Assembly (NCBI GenBank): GCA_019638575.1
Contig: JAHBTN010000006.1
Coordinates: forward strand, 62,001-126,000
Origin: Ferruginibacter sp.
GTDB taxonomy: Bacteria; Bacteroidota; Bacteroidia; Chitinophagales; Chitinophagaceae
Length of the DNA: 64,000 nt
Direction: 5' to 3'
How positions within the stretch are numbered: position 1 is the first letter of the stretch; each line of letters starts with the position of its first letter. The notes under the pieces were generated by a model. That model made no database searches, had not been told where the DNA came from, and worked only from the letters and a program-made list of their open reading frames with translations. The translations under genes and the position numbers were made by a program. Shown here in pieces: positions 49,300 through 52,203 of the stretch.

Positions 49300-50565
49300 A
49301 TGCAAAGGCGAAAATTTCTCAGGTGGTCATCGTTGTTAAGTGTTGCAGGTTTGATACCAGTAAAAAATATGCTGGCCATTTCAAATGATGAAGATAAAAA
49401 TGTTTTTAAAAATAAAGATGACAGAAAGTATTGGGTAGCGTTATTAGATAAAATTGCATCGCCGGTGCTATCTAATATGAGTAAAGGCGAGTTAAAGAAA
49501 AACATGAAAGTGGCATACAGTCCTACCTGGGATGGCCGTAATAACCAGGTGGCATATATGGAAGCATTTGGCAGGCTGATAGCAGGCCTTGCCCCTTTTC
49601 TTGCATTGCCGGATGATGGAAGTGAAGAAAGCAAGGTAAGGGAAAAGCTACGCAGGCAAACACTTGAAAGCCTTGTGCATGCTGTAAATCCGCAAAGTCC
49701 CGATTATTTATACTGGGGATCGCCACAAACACGGCAGCCATTGGTGGATGCAGCTTACATTGCACAAGCATTACTTACTGCTCCCGAAGCATTATGGCAT
49801 CCGCTTGATGATATCACCAAACAGCGCTTTGTTCATGAGTTTAAATCTATCAGGCAGATACAACCTTTTAACAGCAATTGGTTATTGTTTGCCGCCATAA
49901 TTGAAAGTTTTTTACTTAGCATTGGCCAAGAAATTGATGCAACAAGGATTGATAACGCCATTGATAAAATAAATAAATGGTATGTGGGAGATGGTTGGTA
50001 TAGTGATGGCGAAAAGTTTCACTTTGATCATTACAACGGTTATGTGATTCATCCCATGCTTACACAGGTATTGAAAGTAAATGTTGCTAAAGGTAGAAGA
50101 GATAAAAAAGAATATGATATTGCATATAAAAGAATGCAGCGGTATGCCAGTTTCCAGGAGCGGTATATTTCTCCCGAAGGAACATATCTTGTTGTTGGCC
50201 GTTCATCCACTTATCGCATTGGTGCATTTTGGCCGCTAACTAAATTATGTCTCGATAATAACTTGCCGGAAGATATAAAACCTGCACAGGTTCGCTGTGC
50301 ATTAACAGCCGTAATGAAAAAAATGTTCATCCCGGCAACATTCACCAGCGATGGTTGGCTTACATTGGGACTTGTAGGTGATAAGCAAGAAGCCTTAGCA
50401 GATTATTATTCCAATACTGGCAGCATGTACATAACATCACTGGCATTTTTACCGCTTGGGCTTCCAGCCACACATGAATTTTGGAGCGACCCATTTACCG
50501 AATGGACACAATGTAAAGCCTGGAGAGGCAAACCTTTTAAAAAAGATTATGCAGTGGATTACTAG
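49300..50565 (+). CDS. DUF2264 protein (GH154-type, probable uronic-acid glycosidase)
   Basis: 421 residues with an N-terminal Tat-like signal (MQRRKFLRWSSLLSVAGL). The body is DUF2264: GRLIAGLAPFLALPDDG, WLLFAAIIESFLLSIG, WYVGDGWYSDGEKFHFDHYNGYVIHP, GRSSTYRIGAFWPL and a C-terminal WRGKPFKKDYAVDY. DUF2264 proteins were later placed in glycoside hydrolase family 154 with activity reported on uronic acids; I rely on memory for that. Directly follows the GH88 gene (128 bases) on the same strand. Confidence 0.88.
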   Translation: MQRRKFLRWSSLLSVAGLIPVKNMLAISNDEDKNVFKNKDDRKYWVALLDKIASPVLSNMSKGELKKNMKVAYSPTWDGRNNQVAYMEAFGRLIAGLAPFLALPDDGSEESKVREKLRRQTLESLVHAVNPQSPDYLYWGSPQTRQPLVDAAYIAQALLTAPEALWHPLDDITKQRFVHEFKSIRQIQPFNSNWLLFAAIIESFLLSIGQEIDATRIDNAIDKINKWYVGDGWYSDGEKFHFDHYNGYVIHPMLTQVLKVNVAKGRRDKKEYDIAYKRMQRYASFQERYISPEGTYLVVGRSSTYRIGAFWPLTKLCLDNNLPEDIKPAQVRCALTAVMKKMFIPATFTSDGWLTLGLVGDKQEALADYYSNTGSMYITSLAFLPLGLPATHEFWSDPFTEWTQCKAWRGKPFKKDYAVDY

Positions 50566-50588
50566 AAAATGAAATTGTTGATTTTAAT

Positions 50589-50843
50589 CTATTCAGTTGA
50601 GCTACCAATCAACCGCTCTATCATCCTCTTACTTTTCCAACGTTTAATCTCATACTCCCTCTTACGGGCTTCATCATTTGTTTCAAAATATTGACTGAAG
50701 ACTACAATCCAGTCTTTAGCCTTTGCTGTATGGCCTTTGTGCATTTGTAAATGACGTTCCAGTCTTTCTTCTACAGTAAGAGATGTTGAACCTACATAAT
50801 AGGAACCCAAACTTTCAGCATATAAAATATAACAAAAGGGCAT
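50589..50843 (-). CDS. GIY-YIG nuclease family protein with tRNA-derived C-terminus
   Basis: 84 residues, single domain: CYILYAESLGSYYVGSTS (GIY-YIG motif), the conserved Arg in EERLERH and the Glu in KREYEIKRWKSKRMI. Such small proteins occur in many copies in Bacteroidota genomes, and some look mobile. The last codons (IGSSTE and the TAG stop) are written in an 18-base segment identical to the D-arm of the tRNA-Arg gene 300 bases away. The start codon sits at the tail of the tRNA terminator hairpin. Function unproven; homing endonuclease-like activity is inference. Confidence 0.85.
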   Translation of the reverse strand: MPFCYILYAESLGSYYVGSTSLTVEERLERHLQMHKGHTAKAKDWIVVFSQYFETNDEARKREYEIKRWKSKRMIERLIGSSTE

Positions 50844-50869
50844 AAAAAAAGCACCGGTTTAAAGTGCTT
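50844..50869 (-). terminator. Terminator after tRNA-Arg
   Basis: Stem AAGCAC (50849-50854) / GTGCTT (50864-50869) with a 9-base loop, followed on the - strand by a run of T from 50848. It directly follows the tRNA-Arg gene and abuts the start codon of the GIY-YIG gene at 50843. Confidence 0.6.
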
Positions 50870-50873
50870 ATTG

Positions 50874-50947
50874 TGACCCCGTCAGGATTCAAACCTGAAA
50901 CCTTTTGATCCGTAGTCAAATGCTCTATTCAGTTGAGCTACGGGGCC
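50874..50947 (-). tRNA. tRNA-Arg (anticodon ACG)
   Basis: Complete cloverleaf by eye: acceptor GGCCCCG/CGGGGTC (one G-U pair), D-arm GCTC-AACTGAATA-GAGC, anticodon stem TTTGA/TCAAA with loop CTACGGA giving anticodon ACG, and T-arm TCAGG-TTTGAAT-CCTGA. Discriminator base A. CCA is not encoded. The 5' 28 bases are repeated exactly at 51016-51043. Confidence 0.93.
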
Positions 50948-50969
50948 ATTAATTTTTTTTGTTCGATTT

Positions 50970-51043
50970 TTTTTAGAAGGATTCGAACCTAAAACCTTCC
51001 CGACCTGTGGTCGGGATGCTCTATTCAGTTGAGCTACGGGGCC
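50970..51043 (-). pseudogene. Degenerate tRNA-Arg copy
   Basis: Bases 51016-51043 are identical to the first 28 bases of the intact tRNA-Arg (acceptor 5' side and D-arm). The anticodon arm is replaced by a perfect 8-bp hairpin, TCCCGACC/GGTCGGGA with loop ACA, too long and lacking U33. A T-loop TTCGAAT survives but the T-stem pairs poorly, and the acceptor 3' strand (A-rich) cannot pair with GGCCCCG. It cannot fold as a normal tRNA. Confidence 0.75.
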
Positions 51044-51090
51044 AATTTTTTTTGGAGGGCAAAGATAGGATTTTTAACTATCTGTACAAA

Positions 51091-52203
51091 TTACAAACCA
51101 TTTAAAAATTCAGTATGTATATAATCAACTACATCTACCAGGCTTTTTGATTTTTCATAAACTTTAATCTGGCGGTCTGCCCCGGTACCTTCTTCCAGTA
51201 TTTTGTGTGCATGGTTTATGGCATGCCTGCTACCTAAATCGGGTACCACATCATCAATAAAATCCAATAATTCATAAATTAAAACACGGGTATTCACTTC
51301 AGTTTCTTTTCCAAAATCTATCATGCTTCCATCAATGCCATAGCGGCTGGCACGCCATTTATTTTCGTTTAATAAAGCACGGGAATACATCATAAAATTT
51401 AGGTTTTGGCTGCGTAGTTTATACAGCTTTGCACATATAGCCTGGAAAAGTGCAGCAATAGTAATGGTTTCCTGTACTGTTAAAGGCACATCGCAAATCC
51501 TGAACTCAACAGTGTTAAAGAAAGGATGTACTCTTAGGTCCCACCATATTTTTTTTGCATTGTCAATACAATTTGTTTTTACCAAAAGCTTAATGTAGTT
51601 ATCATAAGCTTCTATGCTGTCAAAAAAATCGGGGATACCGGTTCGTGGAAATTTATCAAAAACTTTTGTTCTAAATGATTTATAGCCTGTAGTGCGTCCT
51701 TCCCAAAATGGCGAATTGGTACTTAATGCATAAATATGTGGTAAAAAATAACGGGCCGAGTTGGCAATATGTATAGCCATTTCACGGTTTTCCATTCCCA
51801 CGTGTACATGCAATCCAAAAATAAGGTTGCTGCGTGCAGCTTCCTGTAATTCGTTTACAATTTCGTTGTACCGTACATGTTCGGTAATTAACTGGCTTTC
51901 CCAGTGGCTAAAGGGATGTGTACCGGCAGCACCAACCCAAAGCCCCAGTTCATCGGCAATGCCACTGATTGTTTTACGCAATGTACCTACATCAATAAAA
52001 GCTTCATCAATATCCTGGCAAATATCTGTTCCTACTTCCACCACTGCCTGGTGCATCTCGGCCTTTACTTTATCTTTAATTACTTTCTGGCCTTCCTGTA
52101 CAATTTTTTGGTCATGGCTTTTAAGCTCCCTTGTTTGAGGATCTATAACCATATACTCTTCTTCTACACCAAGTGTAAAATGTTTGTAAGATAAATTTGC
52201 CAT
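51091..52203 (-). CDS. GCS2-type carboxylate-amine ligase (YbdK-like)
   Basis: 370 residues, the YbdK length. Signatures: FTLGVEEEYMVIDPQTREL at the start, a HVHVGMENREMAI stretch, and YRLRS-like C-terminal segments with AINHAHKILEEGTGADRQI. The family is related to glutamate-cysteine ligase and forms amide bonds between a carboxylate and an amine using ATP. It is 6 bases downstream of the ATP-grasp gene. Substrate unknown. Not the essential glutathione pathway enzyme by default, as Bacteroidota often have several such ligases. Confidence 0.93.
   Translation of the reverse strand: MANLSYKHFTLGVEEEYMVIDPQTRELKSHDQKIVQEGQKVIKDKVKAEMHQAVVEVGTDICQDIDEAFIDVGTLRKTISGIADELGLWVGAAGTHPFSHWESQLITEHVRYNEIVNELQEAARSNLIFGLHVHVGMENREMAIHIANSARYFLPHIYALSTNSPFWEGRTTGYKSFRTKVFDKFPRTGIPDFFDSIEAYDNYIKLLVKTNCIDNAKKIWWDLRVHPFFNTVEFRICDVPLTVQETITIAALFQAICAKLYKLRSQNLNFMMYSRALLNENKWRASRYGIDGSMIDFGKETEVNTRVLIYELLDFIDDVVPDLGSRHAINHAHKILEEGTGADRQIKVYEKSKSLVDVVDYIHTEFLNGL

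Follow-up and report, generated by a model that had tools for sequence, protein, structure and literature searches.

The DNA analysed here, referred to below as the window, is a stretch of 64,000 nt in which a small GIY-YIG nuclease gene is set among tRNA-Arg sequence on the minus strand. In the direction of that strand, the order is a pseudo-tRNA, tRNA-Arg(ACG), a hairpin, the GIY-YIG open reading frame (ORF) and a segment equal to tRNA positions 7–24. The features are listed in this order, together with the two flanking genes.

51091..52203, minus strand: conserved upstream neighbour, GCS2 (PF04107; Pfam), which defines the orthologous tRNA-Arg site
50978..51043, minus strand: palindrome-bearing pseudo-tRNA-Arg (shares 28 nt exactly with the intact tRNA; Rfam 19.8 bits)
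50998..51016, minus strand: palindrome TCCCGACCACAGGTCGGGA replacing the anticodon arm (comparison with the intact tRNA)
50873..50947, minus strand: intact tRNA-Arg(ACG) (ARAGORN, Rfam)
50849..50869, minus strand: terminator-like hairpin separating the ORF from the intact tRNA (consensus scan only)
50589..50843, minus strand: GIY-YIG nuclease ORF, 84 aa (PF01541; ORF list)
50588..50605, minus strand: shortened downstream tRNA copy, tRNA-Arg positions 7–24 only, holding the TAG stop (repeat search)
49300..50565, plus strand: convergent downstream neighbour, DUF2264 (PF10022; Pfam)

ARAGORN identifies the tRNA-Arg(ACG) as the single tRNA of the window, and Rfam concurs. The 18-mer GTAGCTCAACTGAATAGA is present in three exact minus-strand copies (50588–50605, 50924–50941 and 51020–51037), where 0.03 would be expected and none of 100 shuffles has as many, which rejects a chance repeat. 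No further site with up to three mismatches exists in the 64,000 nt. The initial annotation had reported these three copies, and they match exactly at all positions; its placement of the nuclease TAG stop within the copied D-arm segment, and its count of exactly 28 bases shared by the two larger tRNA copies, were likewise borne out. The last residues of the ORF, SSTE, are encoded by D-arm sequence, and the T-run of the tRNA terminator directly precedes the start codon; the hairpin scan returns three such sites in the window against 0.8 expected. The tRNA copy at 50978–51043, which contains the 18-mer at 51020–51037 and was earlier described as broken, is indeed broken, but not at random: the 17-nt anticodon arm is swapped for the 19-nt TCCCGACCACAGGTCGGGA, the tRNA resumes at position 45, and the 3′ end is lost. 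Its Rfam score lies under the gathering score of 29 bits. The junction between DUF2264 and the 3′ end of the GIY-YIG gene is also present in a sister genome, G072, the nearest of the same genus.

The 84-aa product is assigned to GIY-YIG by PF01541 (E 9.8e-16; 58.3 bits against a curated cut-off of 22.6) and corresponds to the bare catalytic domain. Tyr16, Arg27, His31, Glu63 and Lys67 are invariant among 40 aligned homologues, and the first four we take to be the catalytic positions of GIY-YIG. The nearest solved structures are UPF0213 (E 5e-14) and the structure-specific SLX1 (5e-8), with I-TevI at 0.0055; the best matches are 1zg2, 1ywl and 7cq2. The group I intron endonuclease model TIGR01453 is matched by 17 of the 40 relatives, and not by the window protein. 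Comparison of the window gene with each of the two GIY-YIG copies in G072 gives dN/dS values of 0.15 and 0.20, indicating purifying selection; the value between the two G072 array copies themselves (0.71) counts against the homing reading set out below.

No PHROGs family was found at E 0.01 for three proteins of the group, and the window protein has no match at 1e-5 in 50,697 phage records (tblastn) and none in plasmids; these searches thus point to no vector, which counts against the homing reading. A group I intron can be dismissed, as the tRNA-Arg is intact and Rfam places no intron at 50300–51300 up to E 1. The same applies to an integrase-type element: apart from the GIY-YIG gene, no ORF of at least 60 aa is listed in the stretch from the intact tRNA to the D-arm fragment. 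The initial annotation had likened the insertion to that of site-specific integrating elements; the tRNA-flanked arrangement agrees with this, but an integrase mechanism is unlikely in a unit that has no recombinase gene.

tRNA genes beside GIY-YIG homologues

At E 1e-8, the GIY-YIG family is present in 190 of 296 sampled Bacteroidota genomes and in 99 of 139 genera, with at least 838 matches and a median of 3 per positive genome, scoring being capped at 19 candidates per genome. Several homologues in G054, G022, G031 and G005 lie at contig ends, which fits assemblies broken by repeat arrays, and counts from fragmented genomes may be low. Outside Bacteroidota, a locus of Candidatus Neomarinimicrobiota (Fidelibacterota; L011, 2911–3605) has a tRNA-Gly followed after 17 bp by a GIY-YIG gene and, in tandem with it, a second one.

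Within the genus, 57 homologues occur in 32 of 59 genomes, and all 57 were examined with their flanks; the phylum set consists of 68 loci from 68 of the 190 positive genomes, one per genome and strongest matches only, and is thus not random (L171 and L173 were excluded as duplicates of L015 and L012). The tRNA sequence that the initial annotation expected in the flanks of homologues is found within 300 bp, on the same strand, as a tRNA or a fragment, at 55/57 genus and 65/68 phylum loci, and on both sides of the gene at 39/57 and 51/68. With a tRNA library freed of palindrome-bearing copies, the values are 55/57 and 65/68 for either side, and 39/57 and 50/68 for both. An unaltered tRNA called by ARAGORN lies within 300 bp at 43/57 genus loci (L034, a palindrome-bearing copy, being left out) and 55/68 phylum loci. 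ARAGORN places no tRNA on the opposite strand at any of the 57 genus or 68 phylum loci. Loose fragment matches on that strand (1/57 and 11/68) count against the pattern, as do the five of 125 loci that have no tRNA-like sequence within 300 bp (L024, L036, L221, L249 and L251), two of which begin at a contig end. Among 20 regions picked for strong or clustered matches, a tRNA is present in 19, the exception lying at a contig start, and HNH nuclease genes of the same phylum, used as a control, have a tRNA at 0 of 30 loci searched up to 3.1 kb. The arrangement is thus real and phylum-wide, and not a local oddity.

Two layouts can be distinguished. In the commoner one, layout (i), the intact tRNA is followed by its terminator, the GIY-YIG gene and a tRNA copy that usually starts at about positions 5–66 and often reaches the tRNA 3′ end. 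In layout (ii), seen in the Ser-TGA arrays L194 and L196, a 5′ tRNA piece precedes the gene and an intact tRNA lies at or over the 3′ end of the ORF. Over the 125 loci, the unaltered tRNA is upstream in 88 and downstream in 10. The stop codon falls inside the downstream tRNA-like segment at 45 of the 97 loci having such a segment within 150 bp, and the state seen in the window is therefore common. Tandem arrays reach five near-identical units, of 315 bp behind tRNA-Asp (L193) and of 365–366 bp behind tRNA-Met (L195). The idea that tRNA dosage is the purpose was rejected, since the arrays as read multiply defective copies and not the intact tRNA.

At least 20 tRNA isoacceptors are found at GIY-YIG loci, and plain tandem duplication of a tRNA, the alternative that the initial annotation had named against its own proposal, does not account for the gene being present beside such a variety of tRNAs. 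In a tree built from 98 GIY-YIG proteins, the 20 tRNA labels can be placed with 36 changes against a shuffled mean of 72.6, and 0 of 200 shuffles give a value as low; the tree is built on few columns, has 11 of 95 inner branches starred and labels L078 as Glu from a palindrome-bearing copy, and the test asks for clustering only. Clades of the protein thus tend to keep one tRNA. The window gene is closest to Val-tRNA genes of one Bacteroidales MAG and one Flavobacteriales MAG (61–62% identity) and more distant from the Arg-tRNA GIY-YIG genes of its own genus (41–50%), pointing to a switch of tRNA target or of host. The closest of the cross-order relatives found are those at 61–62%, which gives no sign that the gene passed recently from one distant host to another and counts against mobility.

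Orthologous sites show the gene present in some species and absent from others. The GCS2–tRNA-Arg site was compared in 31 same-genus genomes, of which 4 have the GIY-YIG gene, 23 lack it and 4 are too short. The downstream junction of the unit in the window is unsuited to an empty-site comparison, as the close relative G072 shares it and is rearranged, and sites at tRNA-Met and tRNA-Ser were therefore compared. The GIY-YIG copies of G072 sit on another contig than its GCS2–tRNA-Arg site. Of 30 loci at the Met-CAT site, 5 are occupied, 22 are empty, 1 holds a palindrome-only scar and 2 have no tRNA in reach. For the Ser-TGA site, likewise with 30 loci, the corresponding numbers are 4 occupied (L306 decayed), 12 empty, 1 scar, 4 short and 9 without tRNA in reach. 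The distance from the tRNA start to the next gene at the Met site is 174–234 bp in 20 of the 22 empty loci and 538–585 bp in the five occupied ones. In L313, the added stretch consists of the ORF, tRNA positions 29–36, a palindrome, tRNA positions 47–73 and a second terminator. Two species carry, at the Ser site, GIY-YIG genes from separate parts of the tree and in opposite layouts (L088/L283 and L098/L284), which suggests that this one site was invaded repeatedly. The orthologous sites are empty in most readable relatives, and the comparison with strains lacking the gene, proposed earlier, thus yields empty sites at three tRNA genes, the occupancy being compared between species of one genus.

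Three of the 23 tRNA-Arg sites without the gene (G039, G043 and G072) have an ICE-like configuration. In G072 (C4; L159 1250–2098), as in L109 and L111, the host tRNA-Arg is broken after about position 48–50 and followed by a complete, divergent tRNA-Arg. This was considered as a relative of the GIY-YIG unit and set aside, since, judged by eye, it is better accounted for by an ICE-like insertion of its own, seemingly a different element that uses the same tRNA.

The palindrome in the extra tRNA copy

The replacement of part of a tRNA by a palindrome is not confined to the window. In 60 loci of layout (i), the extra tRNA copy (tRNA′) extends into the 3′ part of the tRNA, and in 56 of these it contains a perfect palindrome (arm of at least 6, loop of at most 8), where shuffles give 6.0, downstream windows 5/56 and neighbouring tRNAs 14/60; with the cleaned tRNA library the value is 57/61. 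Its location recurs across 64 loci, in each of which the palindrome that agreed best with the flanks was taken. The anticodon arm is replaced in 21/25 copies of Val, Ala, Arg, Lys and Leu tRNAs, the flanks stopping at positions 25–28 and resuming at 44–48. The right flank of Met-CAT copies resumes at 47–49 in 11/13, and in Asp copies the palindrome stands in place of about 51–58 in 7/11. The palindrome has TCC..GGA ends in 52/64. The initial annotation had regarded the tRNA copies as a duplicated target, and partial copies are indeed present; the upstream broken copy, on the other hand, is a palindrome-bearing scar and not simply one half of the target of an insertion. ARAGORN calls several of the copies with a palindrome tRNAs.

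The part of tRNA′ to the right of the palindrome is best matched by the tRNA of its own genome in 40 of 46 testable loci, with 2 ties and 4 better matches elsewhere. A laxer threshold gives 48 best, 2 ties and 5 better elsewhere (n = 55), and when loci are admitted by their own match, a choice that favours the result, the values are 39, 2 ties and 1 worse (n = 42). Because the tRNA of the own genome fits tRNA′ best, the nuclease and the palindrome look element-borne and the tRNA body host-derived, either by local origin or by gene conversion.

Homing and alternative readings

Taking these comparisons together, we consider it probable that the window holds a member of a widespread class of chromosomal selfish genes, in which a free-standing homing-type GIY-YIG nuclease inserts at tRNA genes. 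This assessment draws on the tRNA flanks, partial duplication, empty sites, arrays, the loyalty of clades to their tRNA, the palindrome, and purifying selection in a few pairs; from these we infer cleavage, homing and movement, a role for the palindrome, and expression by read-through. The initial annotation had proposed a mobile ORF that inserts at tRNA genes, duplicates part of the target and rebuilds the tRNA, and the flanks and the three empty-site comparisons support such a view, with movement as its conditional part.

In such a scheme, the nuclease would cut a particular tRNA gene that has no insert, and the break would be repaired from a chromosome carrying the intact tRNA, terminator, GIY-YIG gene and tRNA′, with tRNA sequence on both sides serving as homology. 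The left end would be repaired from the intact tRNA of the donor and the right end from its tRNA′. The product would have one intact tRNA upstream, so that the tRNA gene is not lost, with the nuclease added behind the tRNA terminator and the palindrome-bearing tRNA′ left downstream; the ORF may be expressed by read-through from the tRNA. If the intact tRNA of a carrier were cut again and repaired from the sister chromosome, further units could be added, and the resulting tandem arrays would have a single intact tRNA at one end, which is the form observed. The palindrome may be a record of the cut site, may inactivate that site by destroying the target, or may act as a structural signal. Further points count against homing: the protein is a bare catalytic domain, the intact tRNA of the carrier should itself be a target and yet survives, and UPF0213 and SLX1 as the nearest solved relatives speak against simple sequence-specific cutting.

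The scheme can be extended to a Bacteroidota “home-and-rescue” class, in which a minimal nuclease would target an essential tRNA gene, carry a working replacement tRNA and leave a palindrome-broken copy that ends the cutting, the palindrome marking the cleavage site and seeding hairpins dispersed over the genome. We offer this full version tentatively, and rather doubt it.

An alternative that gives the palindrome the leading part is a structure-guided mobile hairpin system. An SLX1/UPF0213-like nuclease would here act on the TCC...GGA hairpin and not on tRNA sequence, the tRNA being a landing place and dispersed palindromes non-autonomous offspring, much as REPs are the non-autonomous offspring of RAYTs. 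The nearest solved folds agree with this, as do the frequency of the palindrome in tRNA′ and its recurrent ends. Furthermore, one palindrome type has a median of 10 in the 190 gene-positive genomes against 2 in 106 others (p 2.5e-16), and within one family of 11 in 27 genomes with the gene against 2 in 38 without (p 0.004); this correlation ignores shared descent, includes the palindromes of the loci themselves and scores genomes absent from the list of GIY-YIG positives as negative. In G156 (C44, L358 401–1224), TCCCGATAGCTATCGGGA lies inside all three tandem GIY-YIG coding sequences and the reading frame is broken there, which also favours this alternative. The association of clades, and of the place of the palindrome, with tRNA type argues in the other direction, and none of the 4 palindromes sampled in G261 falls within tRNA-like sequence. 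We therefore regard a hairpin-directed system as unlikely.

Of the 8 such palindromes in the genome of the window, 4 are within or next to tRNA-like sequence, recognised in two cases through BLAST matches to pseudo-copies and in the other two through a shorter or visual resemblance; three of the four have no GIY-YIG gene nearby. These three are in or beside tRNA-like pseudo-copies (G000; L346 374–433, L347 401–438 and L345 401–420), one of them Asn-like by BLAST and the other two recognised by short or visual similarity.

The gene may also be a passenger at recombination hot spots, where tRNA duplication and ordinary recombination would keep a host GIY-YIG gene near tRNAs although the gene is not self-mobile. 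Direct tRNA repeats alone can expand arrays, and the body of tRNA′ follows the tRNA of its genome. We nevertheless find this quite improbable in view of the uniform strand of the ARAGORN tRNAs (0/125 opposite), the many isoacceptors with clade loyalty across orders, the negative HNH control, and the presence and absence of the gene at orthologous sites.

An RNA-level system, with tRNA or a tRNA-like RNA as the substrate of the nuclease and the palindrome-bearing copy as its decoy or antidote (toxin–antidote or anti-phage), is favoured by the folding of the L028 tRNA′ (z –2.62 against shuffles, 2/200 as good) and by a report on SegB that ties tRNA copies to defence (PMC13096335), but appears very improbable given the unremarkable folding of the window pseudo-tRNA (z –1.58) and the L025 tRNA′ (z –0.27), the multiplication of defective copies in arrays, and the many tRNA′ that retain just a 3′ or 5′ piece.

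If the homing reading is correct, it would account for small GIY-YIG genes being so common in Bacteroidota, and tRNA genes would join the targets of chromosomal free-standing homing elements. It would also be an example from nature of a nuclease that comes together with a rebuilt, working copy of its essential target, which is the logic of engineered gene drives. The palindrome-bearing copies are a source of false tRNA calls, and the short loci are suited to the study of homing, amplification and the origin of bacterial palindromes.

Comparison with known systems

UPF0213- and SLX1-type small GIY-YIG proteins have the same catalytic domain as the window protein, but are not defined by nesting among tRNAs. 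As in REP/RAYT systems, where the RAYTs are Y1 transposases, a nuclease-type gene lies beside short palindromes that are also dispersed in the genome. Unlike these, the unit described here codes for a GIY-YIG protein only, and the palindrome replaces part of a tRNA. In common with tRNA-targeted integrative elements (ICEs, phages and islands), the insert is flanked by tRNA copies. For archaeal tRNA-targeted inserts, flanking partial and complete tRNA copies and sizes of about 9–23 kb are reported (PMC9897764), whereas the array units of the window family measure about 315–366 bp and have no recombinase gene.

The closest likeness is to SegB of phages T4 and T6, which is also a free-standing GIY-YIG gene among tRNA genes. 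According to two reports, a 718-bp tRNA-Tyr/segB unit amplifies in tandem in T6, with microhomology between the 5′ end of tRNA-Tyr and the 3′ end of segB, and homologues of segB are found close to tRNAs of many isotypes (PMC13096335, PMC2988022). The tRNA neighbourhood, the tandem amplification and the homology between tRNA and gene 3′ end are thus shared, as a likeness of behaviour and not of descent. SegB is phage-encoded with a full tRNA in its repeat unit, and the window family is chromosomal, encodes about 80–100 aa and has overlapping tRNA copies; the passages on SegB consulted mention no palindrome-bearing tRNA copy (PMC13096335, PMC2988022). The PHROGs (3 proteins) and phage tblastn (window protein) searches revealed no kinship in sequence, and we therefore describe the element as working like SegB without classing it as SegB. 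An earlier account of chromosomal GIY-YIG/tRNA units was not found among the titles and abstract openings listed in searches of the open-licence literature, which does not establish its absence from print, and no described system is known to have a palindrome graft in an extra tRNA copy. So far as that literature extends, the arrangement is an undescribed one, and we view it as a variant of the free-standing homing-type elements that is distinguished by its palindrome graft.
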